Source: Anaerostipes hominis (ex Lee et al. 2021) (lineage in GTDB: Bacteria > Bacillota > Clostridia > Lachnospirales > Lachnospiraceae). Taken from it: 57,573 bases of DNA. The DNA lies in NCBI RefSeq assembly GCF_002270485.1, contig NZ_NQOG01000018.1:1-57573 (forward strand), read 5' to 3'. The notes beneath the pieces are model-generated. The model did no database searches. It saw only the letters and a list, made by a program, of their open reading frames with translations, and had not been told where the DNA came from. The translations under genes and the position numbers were made by a program. Shown here in pieces: positions 6,022 through 44,309 of the stretch; position 1 is the first letter of the stretch, and each line of letters starts with the position of its first letter.

Positions 6022-6025
6022 AAAA

Positions 6026-8244: not shown

Positions 8245-9158
8245 AATCCCGCTCCTTTGTGATGGTTTAGAGCTTTTTCACACCGCTCTATGATTTCTTC
8301 TTTTAAGCTTATCGGGTGTACAATTTCAACATTCTCTCCGAAAGATAATAACATTTCGTACAGCCATTCGTTCCGGGGCAGCGACGCCTTTACAACAATC
8401 TGTTTATCGTTTTGTATTATCGCCTCTTCACTGAAAATATCTAAAACTCTATGCCCCATGTTCAGTGGAAAGCGAAGTTCTATTTCGCATAATACTTCCA
8501 TATCCTCAGGCAGCGGCAAAATTCTTGAACTGTCATCAGAAATTTCATCAAACATAATTTCTGTGAGCTCTAGCTTTCTCATTCTTGAGATACGGAATAA
8601 TCTGTAATCTTTTCTTTTGCAGCAAAATCCAAACAAATACCACGACCTGTCTTTATACAATAATTTTATCGGACGGCACCGCCTTTCACTGATATCTCCT
8701 TTGGAGTTATAATAACAAAATATAATTTCCTGTCTTTTTAAAACAGAGGTTTTCAGCAGAGAAAATATTTCGCTTTCTTTTTGAACGCAGGCTCCCCAGC
8801 GAGAAAAATCAATTTCAATCCAGTCTGTATTTGTCTGCTTAAAAAGAGCACGTAATTTTTCTAATGTACTTTCATGATCGGAATACCGGGCAGCGGATAA
8901 GCTTTGCAGACCGATTAAGATATCCTGAATATCAGACTCAGACAGCAAGGCTTTGCTGATTATAAAATCATCATACAGTTTAATACCGCCGTCCCTTCCG
9001 GCAGCGGCATATACTGGGATTCCTGCACTGCTCATTACATCAATATCGCGGTAAATGGTTCTCACAGATACTTCAAACTTTGAGGCCAGTTCAGGTGCAG
9101 TTGCCTGTCCTTTTTCCAACAGATAGTAAATAATTTTGAATAAGCGGCTTTCGTGCAA
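8241..9158 (-). CDS. YafY-type WYL-domain transcriptional regulator
   Basis: This protein is about 305 residues long. The N-terminal winged helix-turn-helix (IIYYLLEKGQATAPELASKF, then SVRTIYRDIDVMSSAGIPV) is of the DeoR/HTH_11 type. A WYL domain lies at about residues 135-225 (IIFCYYNSKGDISERRCRPI, then LYKDRSWYLFGFC). The C-terminal WCX-like part follows. WYL domains bind nucleic acid or nucleotide ligands and often control DNA-damage or defence genes. AAGGAGG at 9167-9173 sits eight bases from a TTG at 9158, whereas a GTG at 9167 overlaps the site itself, so TTG is preferred. It is coupled to the glycosylase-like gene. Two TGACA/TGTCA palindromes upstream are likely its operators. Confidence 0.85.
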   Translation of the reverse strand: MHESRLFKIIYYLLEKGQATAPELASKFEVSVRTIYRDIDVMSSAGIPVYAAAGRDGGIKLYDDFIISKALLSESDIQDILIGLQSLSAARYSDHESTLEKLRALFKQTNTDWIEIDFSRWGACVQKESEIFSLLKTSVLKRQEIIFCYYNSKGDISERRCRPIKLLYKDRSWYLFGFCCKRKDYRLFRISRMRKLELTEIMFDEISDDSSRILPLPEDMEVLCEIELRFPLNMGHRVLDIFSEEAIIQNDKQIVVKASLPRNEWLYEMLLSFGENVEIVHPISLKEEIIERCEKALNHHKGAGL

Positions 9159-9180
9159 TCGTTTCACCTCCTTGTCCCCT

Positions 9181-9257
9181 ATTATATCAGAAAAACCCTG
9201 ACAACGTGTGTCAGGATAAAAATGGATGTTGACAATATCAATGTCAGAGACTATAAT
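9181..9257. promoter_or_regulatory. Divergent promoters with paired TGACA/TGTCA operators
   Basis: The rightward promoter TTGACA (9229-9234), 17 bases, TATAAT (9252-9257) is near-consensus. The leftward -10 TATAAT lies at 9181-9186. Two inverted repeats are visible: CCTGACA-N5-TGTCAGG (9197-9215) and TGACA-N7-TGTCA (9230-9246), the second covering the rightward -35. They are probable binding sites of the WYL regulator. Confidence 0.7.
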
Positions 9258-9639
9258 AAATAAAAATGAGAAATGAAATGAGGTGTCTTGGTGTTACGGG
9301 TTTCTGGAATGAGCATTGCAGAAAAATAAAATATTGATCAGGAAGGACAGGTATGGATATGCCGGTCTGTCTTTTGTCAGCCTGCCTATAACTGCAGTCT
9401 GATCTGATATTTTGCCTTACGAACCCGTTTCATACGCTTTATATAGATGGAAAGAGATGTTGGAACATAGCTGTAATGCTGTGTTTTTTTATTATTTTAA
9501 TTTAGACTTCTTTCGTCAGAAGATCACAGGGAATGTACCGGTTTCCGGGCAATGTATCTGTGATCTTTATTTTATTTCAAGAAAATGTAATTTTGATATT
9601 ATAGGCATAATTCTGTCTTGACTGAGAAAGGAATCTATT
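9258..9639 (+). other. Transcribed region without a recognisable gene
   Basis: The strong rightward promoter at 9229-9257 leads into about 300 bases that encode only very short frames: 23 codons from 9267, or about 14 codons from a TTG/GTG after GAGGTGTC near 9290. A longer frame (9412-9621) has no ribosome binding site or domain. A long hairpin at 9520-9567 with a T-rich tail could end the transcript. A small RNA, a short peptide, or a truncated target gene are all possible. Confidence 0.4.
9520..9575 (+). terminator. Terminator-like hairpin upstream of mutS2-like gene
   Basis: AAGATCACAG (9520-9529) pairs with CTGTGATCTT (9558-9567), with an inner CCGG-TTT-CCGG stem. The sequence TTATTTTATTTC follows. 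Confidence 0.5.
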
Positions 9640-11553
9640 ATGAAAAATGAATCATTAAAGACATTAGGTTATTATCAGATATTAGAGCAGCTCAAAGACT
9701 ATGCATTTTCTGCGGGTGCAAAGGAACGGATCGGCCGGATGCGGCCTTTACTGTCTGAACTGAAACTGAGGAAGTATATAAATGACACATCCCAGGCCAA
9801 AGGAATGGTGGAGGCGTATGGAACACCACCTCTTCCGGCCATGGACCATATGGATGAATATATTAAAAAAGCAGCTGCGGGGGCATTGCTCCTGCCGGAA
9901 GAACTGGAAGAATTGTGTATGTTTTTAAATTCTGTCGGACGGCTGAAGATCTACCTTGGAAAAGGGGAGGATGAAAAAATCAGCCTGGCCTTTTATAATC
10001 AGAATTTAGAATCCCTGGATGACTTGAAAGAAGAGATCAGGCGATGTATCAGGAATGGAAGAGTAGATGACTATGCATCACCGTACCTGAAAGACATCCG
10101 AAAGCAGATTGTTTTGCTCAGTGAGAAAATCGGAGAGAAAGCTGAAAAAGCACTGAAGGCAAATAAAGCTTATATAAGCGATGCATTTGTTGTGAAGAGA
10201 AACGGAAGGTATTGTATTCCTGTACGTAAAAAATGCAGAAATATGGTTTTGGGAAGCGCAGTTGACCAGTCTTCCACCGGTGCCACTATATTTGTGGAGC
10301 CTGCTTCGGTTGCAGGGCTCAGAGAGGAACTGGAACTTTATCAGATTGAGGAGGATTCGGAAGAAAGAAGAATCCTTTACAGCCTGACGAGCCTGGCAGC
10401 CCAGAACGAGGAAGCTTTGAAAGAAGATATTCGCGTGATCGAAAAGCTTGACTTTATATTTGCCAAGGGACGCCTGAGTCTTCACATGGATGCAGTTGAA
10501 CCTGAAATCAATACAGAGCATTATATCAGGCTGAAGAAAGCCAGGCATCCAATGCTGTCAGGAGATACCTGCGTGCCATTAGACTTTGAAATAGGCAGAG
10601 AAAACCGTGGAGTCATCATAACAGGACCAAATACAGGAGGAAAAACGGTTGCAATTAAGACTGTCGCCTTAATGAGCGCGATGGCATGCTCCGGGCTTCA
10701 TGTTCCCTGTGAGCGTGCAGAGATCTGCATGCAAAATGAAATCCTCTGTGATATTGGGGACGGACAGAATATTTCTGATAACCTGTCTACCTTTTCAGCC
10801 CACATCAAGAATGTTCTGGAAATATTAAAAAGAAGTCAGAAAGACAGTCTTGTAATATTGGATGAACTCGGTTCTGGGACCGACCCGGCGGAAGGGATGG
10901 GAATTGCTGTGGCGATCCTTGAAGAATTGAGGAACAGCGGGGCATTATTCCTGGTGACTACTCATTATCCGGAAGTAAAAGAATACGCTGACCGGTATCC
11001 GGAAGTGGTGAATGCAAGAATGGAGTTTGACAGGGAAACTCTGAAGCCCTTGTACCGGCTGAAGGTAGGCGAGGCGGGAGAGAGCTGCGCCCTCTACATT
11101 GCAAAGCGGCTTGGTTTCCCGGGGAAAATGCTCAGTGCTGCAGCCAGAGAGGCGTACGGAGATAAAAGCGAGGCTGTCATAGACAGTTTGCAGCTAACAG
11201 ATACACAGGAGAGACTGCGGAGGGAAAAAGCCCCGTCCATTCAAAAGACAGAGAAGAAAAAGGAAACTAAAATAAGAAAATTTGTTACCGGGGACAGTGT
11301 GACAGTCCTGCCGGAAGGAGAGATCGGGATTGTAGTGAAGCCTGCCGATGAAAACGGTCAGGTGTTGGTACAGATTAAGAAAGAAAAGAAGTTCTGCAGC
11401 CATAAACGCCTGAAACTAAAAGTAGCAGCAACAGAACTATATCCCGAGGACTATGATTTTTCCATTATTTTTGATACAGTAGAAAACAGAAAGGCAAGAC
11501 ATAAAATGGGGAAAGGCTTTCGGGAGGGCCTGGTCATAAAGACAGACGAATAG
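9640..11553 (+). CDS. MutS2-like ATPase lacking the Smr domain
   Basis: This 637-residue protein follows the MutS2 layout: an N-terminal core/clamp region (residues 1-310, with KRNGRYCIPVRKKCRNMVLG and STGATIFVEPASVAGL), then an ABC-type ATPase with Walker A GPNTGGKT (329-336), the DIGDGQNISDNLSTFSAHI signature and Walker B VILDELGSGTDPAEG. A KOW-like segment (VTGDSVTVLPEGEIGIVVKP) is present near 550-570. Typical MutS2 is close to 790 residues and ends in a Smr nuclease domain; here that domain is missing and the last 40 residues are unrelated. MutS2 proteins act on branched DNA or on collided ribosomes, so this paralogue may bind such structures without cutting. Confidence 0.85.
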   Translation: MKNESLKTLGYYQILEQLKDYAFSAGAKERIGRMRPLLSELKLRKYINDTSQAKGMVEAYGTPPLPAMDHMDEYIKKAAAGALLLPEELEELCMFLNSVGRLKIYLGKGEDEKISLAFYNQNLESLDDLKEEIRRCIRNGRVDDYASPYLKDIRKQIVLLSEKIGEKAEKALKANKAYISDAFVVKRNGRYCIPVRKKCRNMVLGSAVDQSSTGATIFVEPASVAGLREELELYQIEEDSEERRILYSLTSLAAQNEEALKEDIRVIEKLDFIFAKGRLSLHMDAVEPEINTEHYIRLKKARHPMLSGDTCVPLDFEIGRENRGVIITGPNTGGKTVAIKTVALMSAMACSGLHVPCERAEICMQNEILCDIGDGQNISDNLSTFSAHIKNVLEILKRSQKDSLVILDELGSGTDPAEGMGIAVAILEELRNSGALFLVTTHYPEVKEYADRYPEVVNARMEFDRETLKPLYRLKVGEAGESCALYIAKRLGFPGKMLSAAAREAYGDKSEAVIDSLQLTDTQERLRREKAPSIQKTEKKKETKIRKFVTGDSVTVLPEGEIGIVVKPADENGQVLVQIKKEKKFCSHKRLKLKVAATELYPEDYDFSIIFDTVENRKARHKMGKGFREGLVIKTDE

Positions 11554-11577
11554 AGAAAAGAACAGGAGGAATTGAGA

Positions 11578-12138
11578 ATGACAGAGAAGGAAAAAGCGGC
11601 TTTGGGAATGCTTTATAATGCAAACTATGATACTGATTTAAAGGAAGAGAGACTTGATTGTCAGGAGCTGTGTGCAGAATATAACCGGCTAATGCCGAAG
11701 GAATTGGAAAAAAGGACAGAACTCATGAAGAGGATTCTGGGAAAAACAGAGGGAGAATTCACAGTGGAGCAGCCGTTTTTTTGTGACTACGGCTATAATA
11801 TTGAAGTTGGTGAGAGGTGTTTTCTGAACTATAACTGTACTATTTTAGACGGAGCCAAAGTTACATTTGGACACGATGTCTTCGTTGCGCCTAATTGTTC
11901 CTTTTATACAGCGGGACACCCCTTTGATATTAAACAGAGAAATGAGGGGCTTGAATACGCTTATCCGATCCATATAGGCAGCAATGTCTGGATCGGAGGA
12001 AATGTGACAGTGCTTCCCGGGGTGTCTGTCGGTGACGGCACGGTTATTGCTGCCGGAAGTGTTGTGACCAAGGATCTGCCCGCCGGGGTGCTGGCGGCCG
12101 GAAATCCATGCAAAATTATTCGGATGCTGTCTGAATAA
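11578..12138 (+). CDS. Maltose/galactoside O-acetyltransferase family protein
   Basis: This 186-residue protein has an N-terminal Mac domain (EKEKAALGMLYNANYDTDL, about residues 3-55) and a left-handed beta-helix of hexapeptide repeats (residues 75-180, ending AAGSVVTKDLPAGVLAAGNP). The catalytic His is in FYTAGHPFD. Such enzymes move an acetyl group from acetyl-CoA to sugars as trimers. The ATG at 11578 is eight bases from AGGAGG. It follows the mutS2-like gene by 24 bases, so it may be on the same transcript. The sugar acceptor cannot be deduced. Confidence 0.9.
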   Translation: MTEKEKAALGMLYNANYDTDLKEERLDCQELCAEYNRLMPKELEKRTELMKRILGKTEGEFTVEQPFFCDYGYNIEVGERCFLNYNCTILDGAKVTFGHDVFVAPNCSFYTAGHPFDIKQRNEGLEYAYPIHIGSNVWIGGNVTVLPGVSVGDGTVIAAGSVVTKDLPAGVLAAGNPCKIIRMLSE

Positions 12139-12162
12139 CAGAAAGGAGAAGCGGCGGGAAAT

Positions 12163-12843
12163 GTGGTGCATATGACAGGCCTTATATTACAGCTGGAATA
12201 CAGTGCAAGGATCCTTCTTGCAGCAGTCTGCGGAGCCTGTATTGGTTATGAGCGGACCAACAGGCTGAAAACAGCAGGTATCAGGACTCATGTAATCGTA
12301 TCATTGGCCGCCGCACTGATGATGATCATCTCCAAGTATGGATTCAGTGACATTCTCGCTGTCCACAACGTAGGACTGGATCCGTCAAGGATTGCGGCAG
12401 GTGTCGTAACCGCCATCGGTTTTCTGGGTGCAGGAATTATCTTTGTGCATAATCAGAGTGTCAGCGGACTGACCACAGCAGCGGGCATCTGGGCTACTGT
12501 AGGAGTCGGTATGTCCGTAGGAGGCGGGCAGTATTTGATCGGGATTTTCAGCACGATCCTTCTGATCATCGTACAGTGGGTCCTGCACAGGGATTTCAAA
12601 TGGATCAGGACGCCTACGGTGGAAGTAATTACCCTGAAGCTGCCCAACGGTCCTGATGCCGTGAAGATGATCCAGGAAACGATCAGGGAGGAATCCATAG
12701 AGATCCTGAACATCTCAGTTCAGAAGATAGGGAATGAGAGCATCAAGGTCAGACTGGATGTGAAACTGACGGACAGCTTTGATATGTACGATGCGATCCA
12801 GCGGCTGCTTGAAAATGAAAATATTGAATCTATTGATATTTGA
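12163..12843 (+). CDS. MgtC/SapB-family membrane protein
   Basis: This protein is about 226 residues long. Four to five membrane helices (residues 10-145) contain the MgtC signatures GACIGYERTNRLKTAGIRTH and AAGVVTAIGFLGAGIIF. A soluble C-terminal ACT-like domain (about 150-226) follows. The acidic and arginine residues of the family signature are present. MgtC proteins modulate ATP synthase or magnesium homeostasis in some bacteria; the role here is unknown. The start is uncertain: GTG at 12163 or 12166, or ATG at 12172, with GGAGA and GGCGGG upstream. It lies 24 bases after the acetyltransferase gene. Confidence 0.85.
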   Translation: MVHMTGLILQLEYSARILLAAVCGACIGYERTNRLKTAGIRTHVIVSLAAALMMIISKYGFSDILAVHNVGLDPSRIAAGVVTAIGFLGAGIIFVHNQSVSGLTTAAGIWATVGVGMSVGGGQYLIGIFSTILLIIVQWVLHRDFKWIRTPTVEVITLKLPNGPDAVKMIQETIREESIEILNISVQKIGNESIKVRLDVKLTDSFDMYDAIQRLLENENIESIDI

Positions 12844-12981
12844 AGGAGAAAGGGCCGGAAAGGGATAAAAAGTCATTTTACAGGAGTATTTATCTGCTGA
12901 TTGTCAGAAATTTATAAGAAATTTGAAGCTTTTTTTTCTATATTGTATGATACCCTAATAGAAAGAAAAGGGGGTGGTTTT

Positions 12982-13515
12982 ATGAGAAACCATAGGAACA
13001 GGAAGCTTCGGGATGGAATATTTAACGGCGTCTTTATTTTTTATCTGGCATTTCTGCTGGAAAATATTCTGTTTAAATATGTACAGCCGTGGCAGCTATT
13101 TCAGCATGGAAGATACTTTTCAAGATCTTTAAATTTAGTTCCGTTTCGGCAAATCATTGGTTCTTCAGGAATCGGTGACCTGAATATTTATGGGAATATC
13201 ATTTTATTTGTCCCGCTGGGAATTTATCTGATGTTCTTTATAAAAAGAAGAAAAGCGGTCAAAAGTCTGCTGGCAGTCTTTGGCATCAGTTTGTTCTTTG
13301 AAGCTTTTCAGTATGCAGCAGCCATCGGAGCCACAGATATTGACGATATTATTTTAAACTGTGCCGGAGGAATTTTGGGAGTTATATGCTATAAAGTTCT
13401 GCTTTTTGTCTGCATGGGAAAGGAAGAGAAGGCAAAGACTGTGATTGCCTGTATTGCGGCCGTGGTCGGAATGATCACCGCAGTTCTTACAGGCTTGCTT
13501 ATTGCCTTTAATTAA
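12982..13515 (+). CDS. VanZ-like family membrane protein
   Basis: This 177-residue protein has four to five predicted membrane helices. The VanZ pattern is visible: SLNLVPFRQIIGSSGIGDLN before the second helix, YGNIILFVPLGIYLMF, then SLFFEAFQYAAAIGATDIDD with the acidic motif at the end of the third helix. VanZ proteins reduce glycopeptide sensitivity in the founding example, but most relatives are uncharacterised and no van genes are near. GGGGGTGG precedes the ATG at 12982. Confidence 0.85.
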   Translation: MRNHRNRKLRDGIFNGVFIFYLAFLLENILFKYVQPWQLFQHGRYFSRSLNLVPFRQIIGSSGIGDLNIYGNIILFVPLGIYLMFFIKRRKAVKSLLAVFGISLFFEAFQYAAAIGATDIDDIILNCAGGILGVICYKVLLFVCMGKEEKAKTVIACIAAVVGMITAVLTGLLIAFN

Positions 13516-13518
13516 GGC

Positions 13519-13547
13519 TTTACAAGATATAAAAGATATTTTATACT
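13519..13547 (+). promoter_or_regulatory. Promoter of the ABC-F leader
   Basis: TTTACA (13519-13524), 17 bases and TATACT (13542-13547), directly after the VanZ-like gene. Confidence 0.7.
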
Positions 13548-13579
13548 CTAAATAAGAAAAAGAAATGAGGTGTGGAAGG

Positions 13580-13600
13580 ATGATGATTATTTCTTGCTAA
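13580..13600 (+). CDS. Putative six-residue leader peptide
   Basis: The frame reads MMIISC then TAA, beginning next to GGAAGG. Its place between a good promoter and an attenuator ahead of an ABC-F gene suggests a stalling peptide. A second frame of 22 codons (13618-13686) overlaps the hairpin but has no ribosome binding site. Confidence 0.4.
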   Translation: MMIISC

Positions 13601-13731
13601 AATTAAAACGGCATAAGATGAGAAGGAGGTTTCCTTCTGGTTTTATGCGCTCTGCAAGAAAGATCATCCGAACTGCTTCTATATAGATTGATATTAGTGT
13701 ACGCTTGGCGTGAGTGATATTTTTGTATGCG

Positions 13732-13766
13732 AACCTGCGGGGAGAGTCTTTCCTGCGGGTTTTTTG
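13732..13766 (+). terminator. Attenuator upstream of the ABC-F gene
   Basis: AACCTGCGGGGA (13732-13743) pairs with TCCTGCGGGTT (13750-13760), including some G-U pairs, and leads into a T-rich run. It ends about 40 bases before the ABC-F start. Confidence 0.7.
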
Positions 13767-13804
13767 TTTTGTTAAAGATCTTATCACGGTCAGGAGGTAC
13801 ATTT

Positions 13805-15286
13805 ATGTCTATGATTCAAATTTCAGATTTAACGTTTTCATATGATACCAGTTTTGATTATATCTTTGAGCATGTCTCATTTCAAATTGATACGGACTGG
13901 AAGCTTGGATTTACGGGAAGAAATGGAAGGGGGAAAACCACATTTTTAAAATTATTGATGGGAGAGTATGAGTATAGGGGCTCTATTGCGGCGAGTGTAA
14001 AATTTGATTATTTTCCGTATCCGGTAAAGGACCCGACGGCGCTCACAGTGGATGTGCTGGAGTCTGTGGACCCGCAATATGAACTTTGGAAGGTCATGAA
14101 AGAGATGTCACAGCTGGGTGTTCCGGATGAAGTCCTGTACCGTCCATTCCAAACGTTATCAAACGGAGAGCAGACGAAAGTGCTGCTGGCTGTTTTGTTT
14201 GGCAAAGAAAACAATTTTCTGCTGATCGATGAGCCTACCAATCACCTGGATGCCGAGGCCAGAAGAAAGGTAGGAGCGTATTTAAACTCCAAGAAAGGAT
14301 TTATTCTTGTATCCCATGACCGGGCGTTTCTGGATGAGTGTACGGATCACGTTTTATCTGTGAACAGAACGGAGATCGAGGTGCAGAAGGGAAATTTTTC
14401 TTCCTGGTATGAAAATAAGCTTCTCAGAGACCAGTATGAACTCTCGGAAAATGAGAAACTGAAAAAGGAGATCGGAAGGCTTTTAAAATCTCAGAGAAGG
14501 ACTGAGGGATGGTCAGATCAGGTGGAAAAGACAAAAAGGGGCACCAGAAACTCCGGCCTTCGTCCGGACAGGGGATTCATCGGCCATAAGGCGGCAAAAA
14601 TGATGAAGCGGTCAAAGGCGGCAGAGACAAGAAAGGAAGATGCAGTCAAAGAGAAATCAAAGCTGTTAAAGAATATCGAGACTTCGGAAGCCTTAAAAAT
14701 ATCTCCTCTGGAACACCATGCGAAACGGCTGGCAGTATTGGAGGATGTGTCAATTTCCTATGGAAGCAAAATTGTAACCGAAAATCTGTCCTTTGACATT
14801 GAGAAAGGGGACAGGATTGCCCTGGTTGGGAAAAATGGCTGCGGAAAATCCAGTGTGCTGAAACTTTTGCTTGGAAAGGCGGTGGATCACGAAGGTTATC
14901 TTTATAAAGCCAATGGTCTGAGAATATCTTATGTGCCCCAGAACACGGACGGATTGAAGGGGGATCTCAGAGAGTATGCATATAACTGCGGTATTGATGA
15001 GAGTCTGTTTAAGACCATCTTGAGAAAGCTGGATTTTTCCAGGATTCAGTTTGAGAAAAAAATAGAGGAATTCAGCGAGGGACAGAAAAAGAAGGTGCTG
15101 ATCGCAGGAAGTCTGTGTGAGCAGGCACATCTGTATTTGTGGGATGAACCCTTGAACTATATTGATGTGTTTTCCAGGATACAGATTGAGGAATTGCTGA
15201 AAAACAGCGGAATAACCCTTTTATTTGTGGAGCATGACCTGGCATTCTGCAATCAGATTAAAACAAAAGAAATTTTAATGCAATAA
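13805..15286 (+). CDS. Lsa-family ABC-F ribosome-protection protein
   Basis: This 493-residue protein has two ABC domains and no membrane segment. Walker A sites are GRNGRGKTT (about residue 39) and GKNGCGKSS (about 343). The signatures are LSNGEQTKV and FSEGQKKKV, and Walker B is LLIDEPTNHLD in the first domain and a diverged YLWDEPLNYID in the second. The linker (about 205-310) is long and basic, as in antibiotic-resistance ABC-F proteins. Length and opening MSMIQISDLTFSYDTSFDYI are typical of the Lsa group, which displaces lincosamides, pleuromutilins and streptogramin A from the ribosome. CAGGAGG fixes ATG 13805. Whether this chromosomal copy confers resistance is not known. Confidence 0.9.
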   Translation: MSMIQISDLTFSYDTSFDYIFEHVSFQIDTDWKLGFTGRNGRGKTTFLKLLMGEYEYRGSIAASVKFDYFPYPVKDPTALTVDVLESVDPQYELWKVMKEMSQLGVPDEVLYRPFQTLSNGEQTKVLLAVLFGKENNFLLIDEPTNHLDAEARRKVGAYLNSKKGFILVSHDRAFLDECTDHVLSVNRTEIEVQKGNFSSWYENKLLRDQYELSENEKLKKEIGRLLKSQRRTEGWSDQVEKTKRGTRNSGLRPDRGFIGHKAAKMMKRSKAAETRKEDAVKEKSKLLKNIETSEALKISPLEHHAKRLAVLEDVSISYGSKIVTENLSFDIEKGDRIALVGKNGCGKSSVLKLLLGKAVDHEGYLYKANGLRISYVPQNTDGLKGDLREYAYNCGIDESLFKTILRKLDFSRIQFEKKIEEFSEGQKKKVLIAGSLCEQAHLYLWDEPLNYIDVFSRIQIEELLKNSGITLLFVEHDLAFCNQIKTKEILMQ

Positions 15287-15302
15287 AACAGTGCTCAGAA
15301 TG

Positions 15303-15349
15303 AAGCCTCCTTCAAATGGAAATAATAATTCCATAAGAGAAGGAGGCTT
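15303..15349 (+). promoter_or_regulatory. Hairpin that sequesters the permease ribosome binding site
   Basis: AAGCCTCCTTC (15303-15313) pairs perfectly with GAAGGAGGCTT (15339-15349). An inner stem ATGGAA/TTCCAT (15316-15321 with 15329-15334) closes the loop. The 3' arm contains the AAGGAGG of the next gene, whose ATG is at 15352. The hairpin can block initiation or, with only four T residues after it, act as a weak terminator of the ABC-F transcript. Confidence 0.75.
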
Positions 15350-15351
15350 TT

Positions 15352-16656
15352 ATGATTCGCTGGATAGAAAAAAAATTTAAATTAAGAGAGCATCATACAG
15401 ATATCAGAACAGAATTCCTGGCAGGTATCACAGTCTTTATTACCATGGCCTATGCCCTGGCTACGGTGCCCAACATGCTGGAAGCCACGGGAGTGGATAA
15501 GCACGTGATGATGACGGTTATGGTACTGCTCATCGCCGCTGCGACACTGGCGATGGCACTTTATACGAACCGGCCCTTTGCCCTGGCACCGGGACTCAGC
15601 AGTGCAGGGATTGTGGCTGCTATGATAAGCGCCGATCACGTACCGGTAAGGATTGCAGGAGGCATTGTTTTCTGGAGTGGTCTGCTGTTTCTCGCCATTA
15701 CATTTTTGGGTCTCAGGGAGGCGATCGTAAGAGCTGTCCCTGCCAGTTTAAAATATGCGGTCAGCGCTGGTATCGGTATTTTCATTGCTCTGATCGGAGC
15801 AAGGGGAGCGGGTATTATTGCGGCGAATGAGGCAAAAAACAGCCTTGTATTTGAAAACCCTGGATCGCCGGAGGTGATTACGGCAGTGTTTGGATTTGTC
15901 ATTCTCCTGATTCTGAGGGCAAAGCGTGTGCCTGGAGATATGGTTCTGTCTATACTGGCGGCTGCCATAGCCGGAATACCGCTGGGAGTGACGAAACTGC
16001 CTGAAAAGATTATTTCCATGCCGGCTTCTGTCGGGGGACAGCTGTTTCAGATTGATATCCTTGGAGCGCTTCAGGTGTTCTATCTTCCGTTTCTTTTAGC
16101 CCTGTTTGTTCCGGATTTCTTTGCCACCGTGGGGACAATCCTTGGGGTTGGTGCACGCGCGGGTTACCTGGATGAGAACGGGAACTTTGACGGCATTGAT
16201 CAGTGTTTCCAGGTAGATGCGGCTGCAACGAGTCTGGGAGCACTGTTTGGAATGCCGGGCATGACCACTTATCTGGAATCTTCTGCGGGTATCGAGTCCG
16301 GGGGAAAGACGGGACTGACCGTAGTGTTTACGAGCATATGCTTTCTGTTTGCACTGTTTTTTGCCCCGGTGGCCCTCATCATACCTTCTGCGGCTACGGC
16401 CCCGGTGCTGGTCTATATCGGCATCAGCATGCTGGAGGCCATGAGCCATATTAAGTATGATGATGTGACGGAGAGTATGCCGTCCTTTATGTGCGTGGTT
16501 TTCACAGTTCTGGCCGGAAATATCGCAAACGGGATCTGCACCGCCATTCTGACGTATCTGGTCATGAAAACGGCGGGAGGGAAAACAAAAGAGATACATC
16601 CGTTCATGTATCTCTTAGGTGCGGTGAGTTTGCTTTACTTTTATACGCTGTTTTGA
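15352..16656 (+). CDS. NCS2-family (AzgA/PbuG-like) purine permease
   Basis: This 434-residue membrane protein has 12-14 helices and the AzgA-branch signatures of NCS2: TDIRTEFLAGITVFITMAYA near the start, LAPGLSSAGIVAAM at 79, a conserved AVPASLKYAVSAGIGIFIAL helix, and GMPGMTTYLESSAGIESGG, which replaces the usual GTSTVTTYIESAAG motif. Members import adenine, guanine or hypoxanthine with protons. No purine riboswitch is visible upstream. Instead the ribosome binding site is inside a perfect hairpin. The next gene converges on it from 16668. Confidence 0.9.
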   Translation: MIRWIEKKFKLREHHTDIRTEFLAGITVFITMAYALATVPNMLEATGVDKHVMMTVMVLLIAAATLAMALYTNRPFALAPGLSSAGIVAAMISADHVPVRIAGGIVFWSGLLFLAITFLGLREAIVRAVPASLKYAVSAGIGIFIALIGARGAGIIAANEAKNSLVFENPGSPEVITAVFGFVILLILRAKRVPGDMVLSILAAAIAGIPLGVTKLPEKIISMPASVGGQLFQIDILGALQVFYLPFLLALFVPDFFATVGTILGVGARAGYLDENGNFDGIDQCFQVDAAATSLGALFGMPGMTTYLESSAGIESGGKTGLTVVFTSICFLFALFFAPVALIIPSAATAPVLVYIGISMLEAMSHIKYDDVTESMPSFMCVVFTVLAGNIANGICTAILTYLVMKTAGGKTKEIHPFMYLLGAVSLLYFYTLF

Positions 16657-32811: not shown

Positions 32812-33534
32812 TTACCAGCCTCCGGAGAAGGTGATGACCTCTCCCGTCAGATACCGGGGTGCGGTGCAGGTATGATAGATCATTTCTGCGGCTTCCCTGG
32901 GATCGGCAATCCGGTCTGCCGGTATCTCCTGCCGGATCATGTCTTTTTCTTCTTCGGTGAATCCGGAGTTCATTTCTGTGTCGATCATGCCGAACGCCAC
33001 TGCGTTCACGGAGATATTGCTGGGTGCAACCTCCTTGGCCAGGGCTTTCGTAAACGTGTTGACGGCGCCTTTGGCGGCAGAGTACAGCACCTCACAGGAG
33101 GCGCCTGTGTCACCCCACACGGAAGATACGTTGAGGATCGTACCGGATTGCCGGCGGATCATATGAGGGAGGACACTTTTGCAGGAGGCAAACATTGGCA
33201 TCACATTGGTGTGGAATATTTCCTGCCAGTCTTTTTCGGTGGTATCAGTAAACAGGCCCACTCTGGAAATTCCTGCATTGTTTACAAGGCAGTCCAGTTT
33301 TCCAAAATGAGAGATTGTCTCCCGGATCATCCGGTCTACGAAAGAGGAACTGGATATATCACCTGTAAAAGAAAGGCATTGGACGCCGAACCTTTTGATG
33401 TTTTGTTCTAGGGATGCGAGGCATTCGGGATGACGGTAACCGTGGATTGCCACATTCCAGCCGTTTTGGGCAAAGACCAGAGCTGTTTCTCTGCCGATGC
33501 CTCTGGAACTGCCTGTGATGAGTACTGTATTCAT
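32812..33534 (-). CDS. SDR-family oxidoreductase (FabG-like)
   Basis: This 240-residue protein has the short-chain dehydrogenase motifs TGSSRGIGRE (cofactor loop, 7-16), NNAG, Ser of NVSSVWG, and YSAAK (catalytic Tyr and Lys), then VNAVAFGMIDTEM. The missing Asp/Arg rules for cofactor choice are ambiguous; the Tyr-Arg-His after the second strand (HGYRHPE) suggests NADPH. ATG 33534 is preceded by AGGAGGAG; an upstream continuation of the frame runs into the divergent promoter and is rejected. It is likely a ketoacyl or ketone reductase of unknown substrate, with a separate promoter facing the LytR_C gene. Confidence 0.85.
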   Translation of the reverse strand: MNTVLITGSSRGIGRETALVFAQNGWNVAIHGYRHPECLASLEQNIKRFGVQCLSFTGDISSSSFVDRMIRETISHFGKLDCLVNNAGISRVGLFTDTTEKDWQEIFHTNVMPMFASCKSVLPHMIRRQSGTILNVSSVWGDTGASCEVLYSAAKGAVNTFTKALAKEVAPSNISVNAVAFGMIDTEMNSGFTEEEKDMIRQEIPADRIADPREAAEMIYHTCTAPRYLTGEVITFSGGW

Positions 33535-33570
33535 AGCTTCTCCTCCTGGATTTAAGAAAACTTTAAGGAG

Positions 33571-33618
33571 AGTATAGCATATAGTTTTGTTGAAATAAAT
33601 CGATTTATTTGGTATACT
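33571..33618. promoter_or_regulatory. Divergent promoters sharing an 18-bp palindrome
   Basis: The rightward promoter TTGAAA (33590-33595), 17 bases, TATACT (33613-33618) is clear. The leftward -10 TATACT is at 33571-33576, with a poor -35. AAATAAAT-CG-ATTTATTT (33593-33610) is a perfect palindrome overlapping the rightward -35 and the upstream side of the leftward promoter. It is a candidate operator of unknown repressor. Confidence 0.65.
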
Positions 33619-33649
33619 GAACGGAGTTTCAAGGGAAGGAGCATGAGAA

Positions 33650-34915
33650 ATGGCCAGAAGAGCAAGGAGAAAAGCAGGAGCCGGGGCGATCATCCTGCGC
33701 ATATTGGTAGTCATCGTATTATCAGCTGCGGTAGGTATCGGTTCTTTTGCAGGGAGTAAAGCATTTTTTCTGAATAGATTTAAAAAAGACAAAAAAGATA
33801 AAATAGCGGAGGCGTTAAAGGCAGAGAGCCAGGAAAGGGTGGATATCTCTCTGATCAGAGTAAAAGATGCCTTATCGATCCGCATCTATCATAACAAGGA
33901 TAAACAGATGGTTTTTGTACCGATCAGAAAGGACACCATACTGACTCTGGACAACGACGGAGTCAAAGCCATGGGCGGAGACACGAAGACAGCGACTGTC
34001 GAGCAGCTGGCAGAGAAGGCCAAAGACATCAAAGTCATCAAGGCACAGGTGGAAAAGACTCTGGGAATTACCATTGGCAGCTATGAGAGCTTGTCACAGA
34101 AGAACTTCACAAAGGCAGTGAACAATGCCGGAGAAGTAGAACTGGATCTCGAAAAAGAAGTGGCTTACAAAGACCAGAACAAGATGCTGGTCCATATTCC
34201 TGCGGGGAATAACACGATTAATGGGAACCAGGCACTGGGAATGATCCTTGACAGCAGCCAGTTCAGCGACGAGAATGAGCACATCGCTCTGGTCGGGGAA
34301 CTGACGGTTAAAATAGCGCAGAGTATCAACAAGAAGTCATTAAACGACTATAAAAAGTTTGCGAAAGATTATTATGGTAGCTATGCAAAGAGCAATGTGT
34401 CATATGACAGCATCAAAGACAATCTGAGCAGGATGCATGAGGTCAGCGCCAAGGACGTTACCTATCTGATCCTTACCGGTACCGACGAAGGGGAAAGCTT
34501 TAAGCTGGATACAAAGAAAACGAAAGAGATGTTTGATGAGCTTCTCTCAGAAAACGGGGGAGTTCCGAAATCATCCGGTTCAGAAAAAACAACAAAAAAG
34601 GAAACAACAACAACGACGGAAAAGAAAGAAGAGACAGAAGTATCTTCAAAGGGAATCTCTATTGAGATCCAGAACTCCACAAGGATCAGCGGTCTTGCCG
34701 GAAGCTGGAAAGACAAGCTTTCGGGAGACGGATTCACGATTGGAAGCATCAAGACGAACCGACAGGGAACTCTGACCGACACAAAGATCATAGTTGCGAA
34801 AAAGGGTATGGGCGAAGACCTGAAAAAGTATTTCAAAAATCCAATCATTGAGGTCGGAAGTGTTGACAGCGGTGCACAGATCTGCATCATCCTTGGAACC
34901 AACGATGATATTTAG
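33650..34915 (+). CDS. LCP-like protein with C-terminal LytR_C domain
   Basis: This 421-residue protein has a basic N-terminus and one membrane helix (about residues 12-33: IILRILVVIVLSAAVGIGSF), so most of it should be outside the membrane. Residues 55-270 resemble the LytR-CpsA-Psr fold (SLIRVKDALSIRIYHN, then NFTKAVNNAGEVELDLEKEV), but the arginine-rich catalytic residues are not obvious. A Thr/Lys/Glu-rich linker (about 305-340) leads to a LytR_C domain (342-421: ISIEIQNSTRISGLAGSWKD). A role in attaching or managing cell-wall polymers is inferred. Confidence 0.8.
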   Translation: MARRARRKAGAGAIILRILVVIVLSAAVGIGSFAGSKAFFLNRFKKDKKDKIAEALKAESQERVDISLIRVKDALSIRIYHNKDKQMVFVPIRKDTILTLDNDGVKAMGGDTKTATVEQLAEKAKDIKVIKAQVEKTLGITIGSYESLSQKNFTKAVNNAGEVELDLEKEVAYKDQNKMLVHIPAGNNTINGNQALGMILDSSQFSDENEHIALVGELTVKIAQSINKKSLNDYKKFAKDYYGSYAKSNVSYDSIKDNLSRMHEVSAKDVTYLILTGTDEGESFKLDTKKTKEMFDELLSENGGVPKSSGSEKTTKKETTTTTEKKEETEVSSKGISIEIQNSTRISGLAGSWKDKLSGDGFTIGSIKTNRQGTLTDTKIIVAKKGMGEDLKKYFKNPIIEVGSVDSGAQICIILGTNDDI

Positions 34916-39812: not shown

Positions 39813-39876
39813 TTTAATATATGAAAATTTCATAGTATAATTGATTTAAATGGATATCATGGGAAAGGAGTGGAGT

Positions 39877-40764
39877 ATGAATTTAAAACAGCTGACTTAT
39901 TTTGTCGCACTGGCAAAGAATCAAAATTTTACCACTGCCGCAAATGAATTGTTCATATGCCAGTCGGCGCTGAGCAAGACGATAAAAGCCATGGAAGAGG
40001 ATTTGGATGTACAGCTTGTTGACCGGACTGCAAAGCGTTTTTGCCTGACGCCGGAGGGCAGGATGCTCTACCAGGAAGGCAGGGACGCGCTGGAGAACAT
40101 CAATAACCAGATGGAGCATTTAAGAGACTGTATCAATGCAAAGAACGGAGAAATTTCGGTGGGGATACCTCCAGTGATCAGTACCATTTATTTTGCGTCT
40201 ATTATCCATGGGTTCCGGAAAGCCTATCCGGGAATCCGTCTTGTTATTGCGGAAGAGGGAGCAAATACTGTGAAAGAGAAGGTTCAGTCCGGAGAGATTG
40301 ACATTGGTGTAGTCATACTTCCTTTTGCCTCGGACGATTTTCATATCCTTCCTGTATTTAAGTCGGATAATGTGCTGACGGTCAGCACGGATCATCCTCT
40401 CGCAGGCCGTGAGAAAGCAGCCTTCCGGGAATTGAGAAATGAAGAGTTCATCTCGCTTGACAAGACGTTTATGCTCCACAGCCGGACCAGGGAGCTGTGC
40501 CATATGTCGGGTTTTGAACCGAACATCGTCATGGAGAGCTCCCAATGGGACTTCATAGCCGAGATGGTTTCACTGAACCAGGGAGTGGCCATCCTTCCGC
40601 GGCCGATTTTATCCCGTTTTAATTCAGATAAAATAAAAATTCTTACACTGACAGAACCGGAGTTTCCATGGGATATAGCATTGATTATAAGAAAGGACAA
40701 ATACGTTTCAAATCCTATCAGACATTTTCAGACGTATGTAAAAAAACACGGGAATATTAAATAA
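39877..40764 (+). CDS. LysR-family regulator of the hydratase/CoA-transferase operon
   Basis: This 295-residue protein opens with a LysR winged helix-turn-helix (LKQLTYFVALAKNQNFTTAA, NELFICQSALSKTIKAMEED), followed by the substrate-binding type 2 periplasmic-fold domain (about residues 90-290, GEISVGIPPVIS). The closest style is the CidR/YwbI subgroup for organic acids, but this is not certain. ATG 39877 is preceded by AAAGGAG. A separate terminator (40775) splits it from the following operon, which has its own promoter. It probably activates that operon when its hydroxy or short-chain acid is present. Confidence 0.88.
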   Translation: MNLKQLTYFVALAKNQNFTTAANELFICQSALSKTIKAMEEDLDVQLVDRTAKRFCLTPEGRMLYQEGRDALENINNQMEHLRDCINAKNGEISVGIPPVISTIYFASIIHGFRKAYPGIRLVIAEEGANTVKEKVQSGEIDIGVVILPFASDDFHILPVFKSDNVLTVSTDHPLAGREKAAFRELRNEEFISLDKTFMLHSRTRELCHMSGFEPNIVMESSQWDFIAEMVSLNQGVAILPRPILSRFNSDKIKILTLTEPEFPWDIALIIRKDKYVSNPIRHFQTYVKKHGNIK

Positions 40765-40774
40765 AGAAATTGCA

Positions 40775-40818
40775 AAGAACTAAACCTGAGATAGAATACA
40801 GGCTTAGTTCTTTTTTTT
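40775..40818 (+). terminator. Terminator of the LysR gene
   Basis: AAGAACTAA (40775-40783) pairs with TTAGTTCTT (40804-40812), with an inner CCTG/CAGG stem and T6 following. Confidence 0.9.
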
Positions 40819-40844
40819 CATGCCGTCTATGAATTTTATATATT

Positions 40845-40873
40845 TTACTGTGAGAATCAACCAAATATATAAT
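40845..40873 (+). promoter_or_regulatory. Promoter of the maoC-CoA-transferase-gntP operon
   Basis: TTACTG (40845-40850), 17 bases, TATAAT (40868-40873). The start codon of the first gene is 61 bases further. The poor -35 fits a LysR-activated promoter; a TATA-N8-TATA repeat is seen near 40879-40894. Confidence 0.6.
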
Positions 40874-40933
40874 GGATTTATAGAAGTAATTATACAAGAT
40901 AATCAATGAATTGCATCAGGGAAGGAGTAATCA

Positions 40934-41374
40934 ATGGGAAATTGTTCATTAAAAGTCGGAGATGGATGTTCTTTTTGTAAACAAATTAGCAATGAGGATG
41001 TCCTGGCATTTGCAGAGGTGACGGGGGATAAAAATCCGCTGCATCTGGATGATGACTATGCGAAAGGTACGGTATTTAAAGAAAGGATAGCACACGGGAT
41101 GATCAGTGCCGGAGTCATCTCGGCGGCCATTGCCATGAAGCTTCCGGGACCCGGTACCACATATCTGGGCCAGTCGCTGAAGTTTACGGGACCTGTGAAG
41201 ATCGGAGACACAGTCACAGCCAATTTGAGGGTAAAGGAATTAAAAGAAAAACCCAAGTTTACGATCGCCACGATCGCCACTACTTGTGTCAACCAGGAAG
41301 GCAAGGTTGTCGTGGAAGGGGAAGCAACCGTTATCCCACCGGAGCATAAGGAGGATACAGCATGTCAAAATTAA
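40934..41374 (+). CDS. MaoC/PhaJ-type (R)-specific enoyl-CoA hydratase
   Basis: This 146-residue hot-dog-fold protein has the hydratase-2 motif AFAEVTGDKNPLHLDDDYA with the Asp32/His37 catalytic dyad, then AHGMISAGVISAAIA. Hydratase-2 enzymes of this size interconvert (R)-3-hydroxyacyl-CoA and trans-2-enoyl-CoA. GGAAGGAG precedes the ATG. Its 3' end overlaps the CoA-transferase start by 13 bases. Within the operon it most likely dehydrates an (R)-3-hydroxyacyl-CoA made by the transferase, for example 3-hydroxybutyryl-CoA to crotonyl-CoA. Confidence 0.85.
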   Translation: MGNCSLKVGDGCSFCKQISNEDVLAFAEVTGDKNPLHLDDDYAKGTVFKERIAHGMISAGVISAAIAMKLPGPGTTYLGQSLKFTGPVKIGDTVTANLRVKELKEKPKFTIATIATTCVNQEGKVVVEGEATVIPPEHKEDTACQN

Positions 41375-42930
41375 GCAGTGCAGAAGAGGCGGTAAAACAG
41401 ATCAAAGACGGCGACACGGTAGCGTTCAACGGATTTGCCTTTGGGTTCGGTTTCGCTGAAGAAATAGCAAAGGCTTTGGGAAAACGCTACGAGGAGGAGG
41501 GACATCCAAAAGATTTGACGCTCCTGTTTGGATCAGGCTGCGGAGACGGAGGAGCCCTCAAAGAAGATTTCGGCCTGGACCATCTGGCGAAAGAAGGAAT
41601 GGTCAAACGGATCATTGCCGGGCATGTGGGACTGGCAAAGAAGCTGAGCAGAATGATCAATGAGAATAAGATCGCGGCTTATAATTTTCCGCAGGGTGTC
41701 GTTGCACATTTATTCAGGGCCATTGCAGGGGGCAAGCCCGGGGTGCTGACTCAGGTGGGATTAAAGACATTTGCAGATCCAAGAGTGGAAGGCGGACGGA
41801 TGAACCAGGCTGCCCGGAGCGAGAGCTTTGTGGAGGTTATGGAGGCAGCAGGGAGAGAATATCTTTTGTACCGTTCCATTCCTGTGGACGCTGCCATTAT
41901 CCGCGGGACGGTGGGAGACGAGAAAGGCAATATGACGGTCGAGGAAGAAGGGGTGCTTTTGGAAACACTCCATATCGCTGAGGCAGCTAAAAATTCCGGA
42001 GGGATCGTGATCGGTCAGGTAAAAGAGGTGGCAAAAGAGGGGACTTTGGACCCAAGAGATGTATATGTCCCGGGAATCATGGTAGATACATTGGTAAAGG
42101 CCAAACCGGAAAATCATCGGATGACTTGTATATTAGACTATGATGCTTCTTTTACGGGGGAAGTGAAAGTGCCGTCTGACAGCATTGCGCCTATGGAAAT
42201 GGGAATACGGAAGGTCATCGCAAAGCGGTGTGCGAAAGAGATTCAGCTGGATACTACGATCAATCTGGGGATCGGAGTGCCGGAGGGTGTCGCTTCCGTC
42301 GCCCTGGAAGCAGGGATTGCAGACCGTCTGACAATGACCATCGAGGCCGGGGCGATCGGAGGAGTGCCTCAGGGAGGACACAGCCTCGGAGCCGCAGCCA
42401 ATGTAGAAGTACTGATCGGCCAGCCCAATCTGTTTGACTTCTATGACGGCGGCGGGCTTGACCTGACCTGCCTCGGGCTTGCACAGGCAGATGCCAAAGG
42501 AAATATTAATGTAAGCAAGTTTAACGGCAGGATGGTTGGCTGCGGAGGATTCGTAAACATTTCACAGAATACGAAAAACGTCATTTTCTGCGGTACATTT
42601 ACGGCCGGAAAGTCGCTGATCGAAGTAAAAGACCGGGGACTTCAGATCGTACAGGACGGAGAGTTTACCAAGTTTGTGGACCAGGTGGAGCAGATCACCT
42701 TCAGTGGAGAGTATGGTGTGCAGACAGGACAGAATGTGCTGTATGTGACGGAACGGGCGGTGTTCAGACTGACGGAAGGCGGCCTGGAATTGATTGAGAT
42801 AGCACCTGGAATAGATCTCGAAAAGCACATTTTAGACAAGATGGATTTCAAACCTTTGATTTCCCGAAATCTAAAAGAGATGGATGCAGATATTTTTGAC
42901 AACACCCCATTAAAGATCGGAGGCAGATAG
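41362..42930 (+). CDS. Propionate-CoA-transferase-like family I CoA-transferase
   Basis: This 522-residue protein has both halves of a type I CoA-transferase in one chain, the size and order of Clostridium propionicum propionate CoA-transferase. The first half contains DGDTVAFNGFAFGFGFAEEI and GKPGVLTQVGLKTFADPRVE. The second half contains NLGIGVPEGVASVALEAGI and the catalytic Glu328 in TIEAGAIGGVPQGG. The reaction moves CoA from acetyl-CoA or another acyl-CoA to a carboxylic acid through a glutamyl-CoA thioester. AAGGAGG precedes the ATG. It sits between the hydratase and the permease. Substrates in the family include lactate, propionate and 3-hydroxybutyrate; which applies here is inferred from the hydratase. 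Confidence 0.85.
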   Translation: MSKLSSAEEAVKQIKDGDTVAFNGFAFGFGFAEEIAKALGKRYEEEGHPKDLTLLFGSGCGDGGALKEDFGLDHLAKEGMVKRIIAGHVGLAKKLSRMINENKIAAYNFPQGVVAHLFRAIAGGKPGVLTQVGLKTFADPRVEGGRMNQAARSESFVEVMEAAGREYLLYRSIPVDAAIIRGTVGDEKGNMTVEEEGVLLETLHIAEAAKNSGGIVIGQVKEVAKEGTLDPRDVYVPGIMVDTLVKAKPENHRMTCILDYDASFTGEVKVPSDSIAPMEMGIRKVIAKRCAKEIQLDTTINLGIGVPEGVASVALEAGIADRLTMTIEAGAIGGVPQGGHSLGAAANVEVLIGQPNLFDFYDGGGLDLTCLGLAQADAKGNINVSKFNGRMVGCGGFVNISQNTKNVIFCGTFTAGKSLIEVKDRGLQIVQDGEFTKFVDQVEQITFSGEYGVQTGQNVLYVTERAVFRLTEGGLELIEIAPGIDLEKHILDKMDFKPLISRNLKEMDADIFDNTPLKIGGR

Positions 42931-42931
42931 T

Positions 42932-44248
42932 ATGGTTGGAATTGTTTTAGGGCTCGCATTGCTTGTGTTCCTGGCGTACAAGGGATATTCAATTATCTGG
43001 GTAGCTCCGGTATCCGCCATGGTTGTGGCGCTGACCGGGGGACTTTCTCTGCTGCCTGCATACACAGACACTTATATGCAGGGGCTTGTGGACTTTGCCA
43101 AATCCTGGTTCCCAATGTTCCTTTTGGGAGCAATTTTCGGAAAGGCAATGGAAGTTACGGGGGCAGCCCATTCTGTGGCGAAAAAATTATCCTCAATGAT
43201 CGGAGCACAGAGGGCAATCCTGGCTGTTATTATCAGCTGTGGTATTTTGGTCTACGGTGGCATTTCACTGTTTGTAGTTGTGTTTGCCATTTATCCGATT
43301 GCCGTATCCTTATTTCGGGAGGCCGACCTTCCGAGAAGGCTGATCCCAGGCTGCATTGCCTGCGGCGCATTCACATTTTCCATGACCGCATTTCCTGGGA
43401 ATCCCCAGCTGAATAATATTATTCCCACAAAGTATTTCGGAACCAACGCAATGTCAGGACCTATCATGGGAATCGCAGGGGGACTTGTCATGCTCGTGGG
43501 AGGATATCTGTGGCTGTCTTACCGCGCAAAGAAAATGACTGCCGCGGGAGAGCACTTTGATGAACCTGACAATATAAAGGAGAGTACTTCAGAGGATCTG
43601 CCCAATCCACTGCTGTCGGTCGTGCCATTGCTGATCGTCGTCGCATCGCTGAATATCCTGCCAATGTGGATAGCGTTTCCGGAAGATAAGAAGTCCACTT
43701 ACGCTATCATCATCGCCCTGCTTTTGGGGATCGCCGCATCTATCCTGTTAAATCTTCGAAATTTGAAGGATATCATCGGCGCTGTCAGTGAAGGTGCCAA
43801 CGGATCTGTCATGGCGATTATGAACACATCTGCAGCCGTGGGATTCGGAGCAGTGGTAAAGGCTGCTCCCGGGTTTGCCGTACTTACAAAGGCTGTCCTG
43901 GGCATCAAAGCAAGCCCTCTGATTTCGGAGGCGCTGGCTGTAACACTTCTGGCAGGAGCTACCGGATCTTCCTCCGGAGGCATGGGCATCGCGCTGGAAG
44001 CATTGGGGCCGAAATATATGGAAATGGCTGCATCTTTGAACATTGATCCAGGCGCTTTCCACCGTGTCGCTTCCATCGCATCCGGGGGACTGGATTCTCT
44101 GCCCCACTGCGGAGCTGTCATCACGCTGCTGGCCGTAGCAGGAATGACACATAAAAAATCTTATGCAGATATCGGCATGGTTACTTGTGTGATTCCCATT
44201 GTGGCAACCATTGTTGTTGTGGCGATGGGGATGATGGGCATAGTTTGA
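42932..44248 (+). CDS. GntP-family organic-acid permease
   Basis: This 438-residue membrane protein has 12 or more helices. The GntP features are visible: GKAMEVTGAAHSVAKKLSSM after an early helix, GGISLFVVVFAIYPIAVSLF, RRLIPGCIACGAFTFSMTAF and GATGSSSGGMGIALEALGPK. Members carry gluconate or 3-hydroxybutyrate-type acids in symport. It starts one base after the CoA-transferase stop. With the CoA-transferase and hydratase next to it, a hydroxy-acid substrate such as 3-hydroxybutyrate is favoured over gluconate. Confidence 0.88.
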   Translation: MVGIVLGLALLVFLAYKGYSIIWVAPVSAMVVALTGGLSLLPAYTDTYMQGLVDFAKSWFPMFLLGAIFGKAMEVTGAAHSVAKKLSSMIGAQRAILAVIISCGILVYGGISLFVVVFAIYPIAVSLFREADLPRRLIPGCIACGAFTFSMTAFPGNPQLNNIIPTKYFGTNAMSGPIMGIAGGLVMLVGGYLWLSYRAKKMTAAGEHFDEPDNIKESTSEDLPNPLLSVVPLLIVVASLNILPMWIAFPEDKKSTYAIIIALLLGIAASILLNLRNLKDIIGAVSEGANGSVMAIMNTSAAVGFGAVVKAAPGFAVLTKAVLGIKASPLISEALAVTLLAGATGSSSGGMGIALEALGPKYMEMAASLNIDPGAFHRVASIASGGLDSLPHCGAVITLLAVAGMTHKKSYADIGMVTCVIPIVATIVVVAMGMMGIV

Positions 44249-44309
44249 CATTTTGTACGTGATTTCCGTTCGGCTCTTAGAATGCCTCACTCCAATCATG
44301 TACAAAATG
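44249..44309 (+). repeat. Inverted repeat after gntP-like gene
   Basis: CATTTTGTACGTGATT (44249-44264) and AATCATGTACAAAATG (44294-44309) pair with one G-T step across 29 bases. No T-run follows, so it may be a weak terminator, an RNA-processing site or a regulator's binding site. Confidence 0.55.

Follow-up and report, generated by a model that had tools for sequence, protein, structure and literature searches.

In the Bacillus operon yxjC-scoAB-3-hydroxybutyrate dehydrogenase (we take these gene names, and the role in 3-hydroxybutyrate use, to be those of B. subtilis), the free acid would be oxidized first and a two-subunit coenzyme A (CoA) transferase would then activate acetoacetate. A locus that can be compared with this operon lies at positions 39,877 to 44,248 of a 57,573-nucleotide stretch of Anaerostipes hominis (ex Lee et al. 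2021) DNA (contig NZ_NQOG01000018.1; the whole stretch is referred to here as the window). It shares with the Bacillus operon a related permease (about 42% identical in B. velezensis) and a CoA-transferase, but it contains neither a 3-hydroxybutyrate dehydrogenase nor a two-subunit CoA-transferase; instead, a single-chain enzyme would activate the acid itself, and dehydration would come next. The net reaction predicted for the window operon is that of Ilyobacter polytropus and I. delafieldii, fusobacteria to which it is likened by net reaction and not by genes; a plasmid of another fusobacterium carries a similar but longer cluster. Fermentation of two 3-hydroxybutyrate to one butyrate and two acetate is reported in Ilyobacter in the text available from PMC10096456 and PMC3035301.

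We regard the locus as probably an inducible operon for (R)-3-hydroxybutyrate utilization, with substrate, stereochemistry, direction and inducer all predicted from gene content. The original prediction, made on the window alone, had proposed this 3-hydroxybutyrate route, and it is supported both by the gene context of permease relatives and by the pathway genes of the host. Open reading frames (ORFs) and Pfam matches agree on the four genes that it had placed here, and the residues that it had named, Glu328 in the CoA-transferase and Asp32/His37 in the hydratase, are present in the translations:

39877 to 40764, + strand: LysR-family regulator (ORF opening at 39850; domain matches)
40934 to 41374, + strand: PhaJ/MaoC-type enoyl-CoA hydratase of 146 residues, with Asp32/His37 (ORF, Pfam, PDB comparison)
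41362 to 42930, + strand: single-chain CoA-transferase of the Pct/YdiF/FadX type, 522 residues, with Glu328 (ORF, Pfam, PDB comparison)
42932 to 44248, + strand: GntP-type permease of 438 residues, related to the permease of the Bacillus 3-hydroxybutyrate operon (ORF, Pfam, relatives)

A purine-rich ribosome site precedes the ATG at 39877, which agrees with the LysR start in a relative from the same genus (locus L118). The hydratase gene shares 13 nucleotides with the CoA-transferase gene, and a single nucleotide separates the CoA-transferase stop from the permease start, a spacing as in translationally coupled operons. The four-gene set is more than a chance assembly, because it is met again elsewhere, with the gene order kept or changed.

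Protein families of the cassette

The hydratase matches the Pfam family MaoC_dehydratas with 81 bits (cut-off 27) and resembles 5cpg and 1iq6, two (R)-specific hydratases of solved structure. Like PhaJ/MaoC hydratases it combines a MaoC domain with an Asp/His pair; (R)-stereospecificity is predicted. Its residues Ser63, Ile66 and Val133 stand at what we take to be the short-chain pocket positions of Aeromonas PhaJ. A weak likeness to RipB/Ich raised an itaconate (Rip/Ich) operon as a candidate, which was rejected on an equivalog score of 31.8 bits against a cut-off of 340 and on the lack of a citramalyl-CoA lyase among the operon genes.

For the CoA-transferase, the Pfam CoA_trans score is 108.7 bits (cut-off 23), and the alignment to E. 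coli YdiF (2ahu; 422 bits) covers residues 5–514, one chain thus spanning both halves. In chain length and active-site glutamate it agrees with the single-chain family I enzymes (Pct/YdiF), Glu328 being presumably the active-site position, judged from the YdiF alignment. The comparison within the Pct/YdiF/FadX group, whose members have the single chain and the active-site glutamate in common, was made with YdiF rather than with C. propionicum Pct; against the FadX equivalog NF052271 the enzyme scores below the cut-off (410.6 vs. 750 bits). An acrylate pathway acting on lactate was discarded, as no gene of the operon, to which the examination was confined, is a 2-hydroxyacyl-CoA dehydratase.

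The permease scores just 32.7 bits against Pfam GntP_permease (PF02447; gathering cut-off 22.5), which makes it a remote GntP member. Gluconate uptake by a GntP gluconate:H+ symporter was rejected with a TIGR00791 score of 24.8 against 292.75.

Genomic company of permease relatives

When 398 genomes of the phylum were searched with the permease, 56 proved to contain relatives. Partner genes were then recorded within 7 kb of 34 full-length permease places of at least 42% identity; each partner takes its label from the best tblastn match in a set of references drawn from annotated plasmid records and the window itself. Rows of the window genome, hits in pieces, fragments and rows below 42% were excluded; 20 of these were annotated later, and some contig-end fragments stay outside the counts. 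Either a single-chain CoA-transferase or a 3-hydroxybutyrate dehydrogenase accompanies 28 of the 34 relatives, the former adjoining 21 and the latter 7 (three of them with CoA-transferase A/B), and none has both. Eighteen of the 21 CoA-transferase loci also contain a FabG-like reductase (9), a MaoC protein (7) or both (2).

With seven split or cut hits added, one of them the second copy in L122, either partner is found beside 33 of the 41 permease relatives that are more than 40% identical in other Bacillota. Among the added hits, L211 and L212 combine the dehydrogenase with CoA-transferase A/B, L225 has a CoA-transferase, L223 has a 43% dehydrogenase match by tblastn label only, L224 has a reductase and a thiolase on a short contig, and L210 has no partner. 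At 30–39% identity the proportion is 1 of 15: L147 (36%) has a CoA-transferase and a crotonase, and neither partner was found near eight permeases of family f39 (L206–L209 and L213–L216; 36–39% identical) or six further ones (30–38%). Four very remote GntP relatives (23–26% identical) likewise have no partners in their loci. Given this drop across 40% identity, the association is confined to closer relatives and is not a property of GntP permeases at large; such fading is what a substrate-specific group would be expected to show.

The partners form three sets: a TIGR01963-type dehydrogenase; a CoA-transferase with a FabG-like reductase and a thiolase; and a CoA-transferase with MaoC and acyl-CoA dehydrogenase/Etf. 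TIGR01963 is passed by every dehydrogenase scanned, five in all (four from the set of seven, the fifth from a plasmid), and five of six reductases scanned (12 occur in the 34-place set) pass TIGR01830. The sixth, L164, falls short of that model (266.1 vs. 297.75) and passes the broader FabG model NF009466; since it reaches only 212.7 on TIGR01963 (cut-off 307.05), it was counted as a reductase and not as a dehydrogenase. The (R) form is the substrate of TIGR01963 and FabG/PhaB-type enzymes, and we infer that the single compound suiting all three sets would be (R)-3-hydroxybutyrate, as the free acid or its CoA ester.

Plasmid records contain similar combinations: permease, CoA-transferase A/B and 3-hydroxybutyrate dehydrogenase in Bacillus velezensis; permease and dehydrogenase in Rossellomorea; a CoA-transferase, crotonase, permease, MaoC, acyl-CoA dehydrogenase and EtfBA cluster on the Fusobacteria ZRK30 plasmid; and, as a fourth fitting case, a Cetobacterium record. 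In the permease tree, the window protein belongs to a clade of six rows, all with MaoC, CoA-transferase and LysR, which is sister to ten rows comprising four with the dehydrogenase, four with reductase and thiolase and two with no partner found (support 91/97).

Butyrate pathway of the host and proposed route

Entry of crotonyl-CoA into the butyrate pathway, as the original prediction had it, is supported by the 3.33-Mb draft genome of the host. Contig 9 holds a core operon of thiolase, crotonase, Hbd, acyl-CoA dehydrogenase (Bcd), EtfB and EtfA, and also But (933.9 bits; cut-off 674.8); the genes by which the crotonyl-CoA route is recognized (thl-crt-hbd-bcd-etf and a terminal CoA-transferase) are thus present, the core Hbd and thiolase passing their model cut-offs and the core crotonase and acyl-CoA dehydrogenase being best matches below theirs. 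According to the available part of PMC12888040, But is reported in all genomes of the genus Anaerostipes. Two genomes of the genus carry variant cassettes. In G306 (L118), the permease and MaoC genes point away from a CoA-transferase-Hbd-acyl-CoA dehydrogenase-EtfB-EtfA run on the other strand, whose Hbd (394.5 bits; cut-off 408) and Bcd are 81% and 90% identical to the core proteins of the window genome, the acyl-CoA dehydrogenase sharing its best model with the core one; in G307, the variant cassette stands beside an Hbd gene within which the contig ends. In their gene content, these variants show a link of the cassette to butyrate.

In the route that we propose, the permease would import (R)-3-hydroxybutyrate, the CoA-transferase would activate it with CoA from acetyl-CoA or butyryl-CoA, and the hydratase would dehydrate (R)-3-hydroxybutyryl-CoA to crotonyl-CoA. 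Activation by such an enzyme is chemically plausible: the review PMC10992027 reports that Pct-type enzymes support poly(3-hydroxybutyrate) formation from added 3-hydroxybutyrate in E. coli. One part would be reduced to butyrate by Bcd/Etf and But, regaining CoA, and the other would be oxidized to acetyl-CoA by crotonase, (S)-Hbd and thiolase, so that two 3-hydroxybutyrate would yield one butyrate and two acetate. Because the three cassette genes alone would require reducing power from outside, growth on the acid would also depend on crotonase, Hbd and thiolase. Hbd and crotonase are (S)-specific, and it is this specificity of the core pathway that would make a PhaJ-type hydratase necessary: jointly with crotonase it would act as an epimerase, opening the (S)-specific pathway to the (R)-acid. 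We give an even chance to the full proposal that the LysR-controlled cassette lets some gut Anaerostipes ferment host or dietary (R)-3-hydroxybutyrate to butyrate and acetate, with the hydratase and the core crotonase serving as a 3-hydroxybutyryl-CoA epimerase. If true, a gut butyrate producer would turn a ketone body into butyrate, and ketosis, ketone supplements and polyhydroxybutyrate feeds would be linked to the gut butyrate supply; the proposal also makes a testable claim on how (R)- and (S)-3-hydroxyacyl-CoA pools join in butyrate producers. A literature search gave no account of such an operon in Anaerostipes among the matches listed, most subscription journals lying outside its scope.

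The window genome gave no PhaC_N match, and for this reason the hydratase, similar as it is to PhaJ/MaoC enzymes, is probably not a polymer-supply enzyme. The same absence implies that the CoA ester would not be stored as polymer, a point that suits an outward flow in which crotonyl-CoA would be hydrated to (R)-3-hydroxybutyryl-CoA, its CoA passed to acetate and (R)-3-hydroxybutyrate exported; the enzyme steps are reversible. We consider such export highly unlikely: relatives pair the permease with catabolic-like sets (dehydrogenase and CoA-transferase A/B, or reductase and thiolase), and on general physiological grounds export would forgo the energy-conserving steps of butyrate formation.

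Several observations weigh against (R)-3-hydroxybutyrate utilization as the role of the operon. Although permease relatives accompany enzymes suited to 3-hydroxybutyrate use at most loci, this does not extend to 6 of the 34 (L139, L143, L146, L154, L156 on a short contig, and L165) or to 8 of the 41, and five of nine plasmid loci, picked by us from the 30 matches listed, did not fit, against the four that did. The window permease clade of six rows has no dehydrogenase partner itself, and its link to the dehydrogenase-containing clade, at 91/97, is below the level starred in the tree. Complementarity would have meant that MaoC-type cassettes go with Hbd and that reductase-type cassettes occur where Hbd is missing; this contrast was not seen, since an Hbd match occurs in 31 of 32 genomes (27 over the cut-off), whichever of the two cassette types they carry, G528 having none and the reductase-type G562 a marginal one only. 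The operator-like dyad described below is absent, at up to one mismatch, upstream of L123, L117 and L118. In L154, a permease 56–58% identical to that of the window adjoins tartronate-semialdehyde-reductase-like and 3-hydroxyacyl-CoA-dehydrogenase-like genes (786–6619); it likely has a different hydroxy acid as substrate, and the permease subfamily would therefore not be limited to one substrate. Finally, the review PMC10992027 also reports that the A. caccae butyryl-CoA transferase But is itself active on 3-hydroxybutyrate, so the CoA-transferase of the operon may serve something else or may not be the sole activator.

The L154 locus also holds sugar-kinase-like and SIS-domain genes, as judged by eye.

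The non-C4 context of L154 bears on another explanation, that a different short 3-hydroxy acid (3-hydroxypropionate, 3-hydroxyvalerate or a branched acid) undergoes the same import, CoA transfer and dehydration, with 3-hydroxybutyrate as a side substrate. This appears unlikely to us, as the recurrent partners fit C4 models (the TIGR01963 dehydrogenase, and Hbd with core-type Bcd in the same genus) and the hydratase has its three residues at the presumed short-chain pocket positions. In its favour are the broad specificity reported for CoA-transferases in the available part of PMC8355322 and the C3 acids of a paralogous locus, where the CoA-transferase and permease (C12; 50% and 36% identical) appear to belong to the inositol-to-propionate locus of Anaerostipes (OxcT, EcdH, AcaD). 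There, a paralogous CoA-transferase lies beside a GntP-type permease (L084 and L116), but unlike in the window a crotonase takes the place of MaoC, the permease is 34–36% identical and no LysR match occurs within 7 kb. In L084 (G000 contig 12, 166000–184000), CoA-transferase, crotonase and permease adjoin Etf and acyl-CoA dehydrogenase genes, and from position and gene content this appears to be the locus of PMC8355322, although the acyl-CoA dehydrogenase gene is on the opposite strand, versus the putative operon described in the part of that paper available. The same text reports that only two of nine CoA-transferases were highly abundant on inositol or rhamnose; the orthologue of the window operon was thus probably not prominent on either.

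A further locus, L193 (G000 contig 54, 6154–10254), has a MaoC domain in a 239-residue ORF. Beside it are a 492-residue ORF that looks by eye like a 4-hydroxybutyryl-CoA dehydratase, for which the NCBIfam scan gave no hit within its set limit, and another CoA-transferase of the butyryl-CoA:acetate type, whose score of about 309 bits is under the cut-off.

Putative control elements and distribution

The best NCBIfam model for the LysR protein is CidR, at 288 bits under a cut-off of 415. Five features flank or separate the genes:

39814 to 39841, + strand: candidate LysR-gene promoter TTAATA-16-TATAAT (consensus match only)
40774 to 40813, + strand: intrinsic terminator of the LysR gene (−14.7 kcal/mol, z −4.6; T run after)
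40817 to 40848, + strand: operator-like dyad and −35 region TTCAT-N7-ATGAA-N9-TTTTAC (recurrence upstream of related cassettes)
40844 to 40873, + strand: candidate operon promoter TTTACT-18-TATAAT (consensus match only)
44249 to 44309, + strand: hairpin after the operon, 16-bp stem and long loop, without a T tract (−24.4 kcal/mol, z −5.2)

The hairpin at 40774–40813 with its T run bears out the claim that the LysR gene has its own terminator; the one directly 3′ of the permease gene may act in termination, in RNA processing or in some other way.

Ten loci, all found by searching with these same cassette genes, have a LysR match within 7 kb (the window, L005, L008, L114, L115, L117, L118, L122, L123 and L138). 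In these loci the hydratase always accompanies CoA-transferase and permease, in varying orders. This speaks against a scavenging role, be it for crotonate or for mixed short acids, in which the hydratase would be a side enzyme: permease and CoA-transferase would suffice for crotonate, which needs no hydratase, and we find the idea barely credible.

In the window, its close relatives L114 and L115, L005, L138 and one L122 copy, the exact element is located between the LysR gene and the operon, and it also precedes the second L122 cassette copy; L008 has it with two changes. The exact matches represent three lineages: Anaerostipes, a goat metagenome-assembled genome (MAG) and genus g374, to which both L122 and L138 belong. 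The window genome has a single exact copy and the 398 genomes together have 11, against one match for a reversed-pattern control; four of the 11 lie at cassettes of this kind, and seven have no cassette gene within 1.5 kb (one with a 30% match to the dehydrogenase reference). The dyad was picked after inspection of the window, L005 and L008 and was matched afterwards by L122 and L138; N9-TTTTAC was appended after all these loci had been viewed, and the 398-genome search is thus not an independent test for them. LysR regulation of the operon, part of the original prediction, is supported by the conservation of this operator-like element; the LysR protein would switch the operon on through the dyad upstream of the promoter. 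Together with the gene set, the element may serve as a marker for 3-hydroxybutyrate fermenters in metagenomes. In L122 (G684, 7479–16398), the two permease/CoA-transferase/MaoC copies, each with the element, are in tandem, with one linked LysR gene. A second exact TTCAT-N7-ATGAA is found in the window at 5676–5692, without the following TTTTAC.

Across 11 genomes of the genus, the permease is present at 95–100% identity in three and as a 46% variant in two. In the family, a CoA-transferase more than 60% identical occurs in just two of 299 genomes, that of the window and G162. The same four genes occur in two MAGs, a goat-rectum Lachnospiraceae (L005) and a Clostridiales MAG (L008, with LysR divergent). 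In G303 both flanking genes are neighbours less than 30 bp apart, resembling an empty site; in seven other congeners the upstream flanking gene is unmatched at that place or the contig begins there. This distribution and the empty-site-like arrangement of G303 indicate that the cassette is accessory.

The rest of the window holds no partner gene, save a 28% short-chain dehydrogenase match that fits an elongation factor P modification reductase. At 32812–33885 an ORF, which as listed includes about 117 extra N-terminal residues, encodes a protein resembling elongation factor P 5-aminopentanone reductase (249.6 bits to NF047420; cut-off 238).

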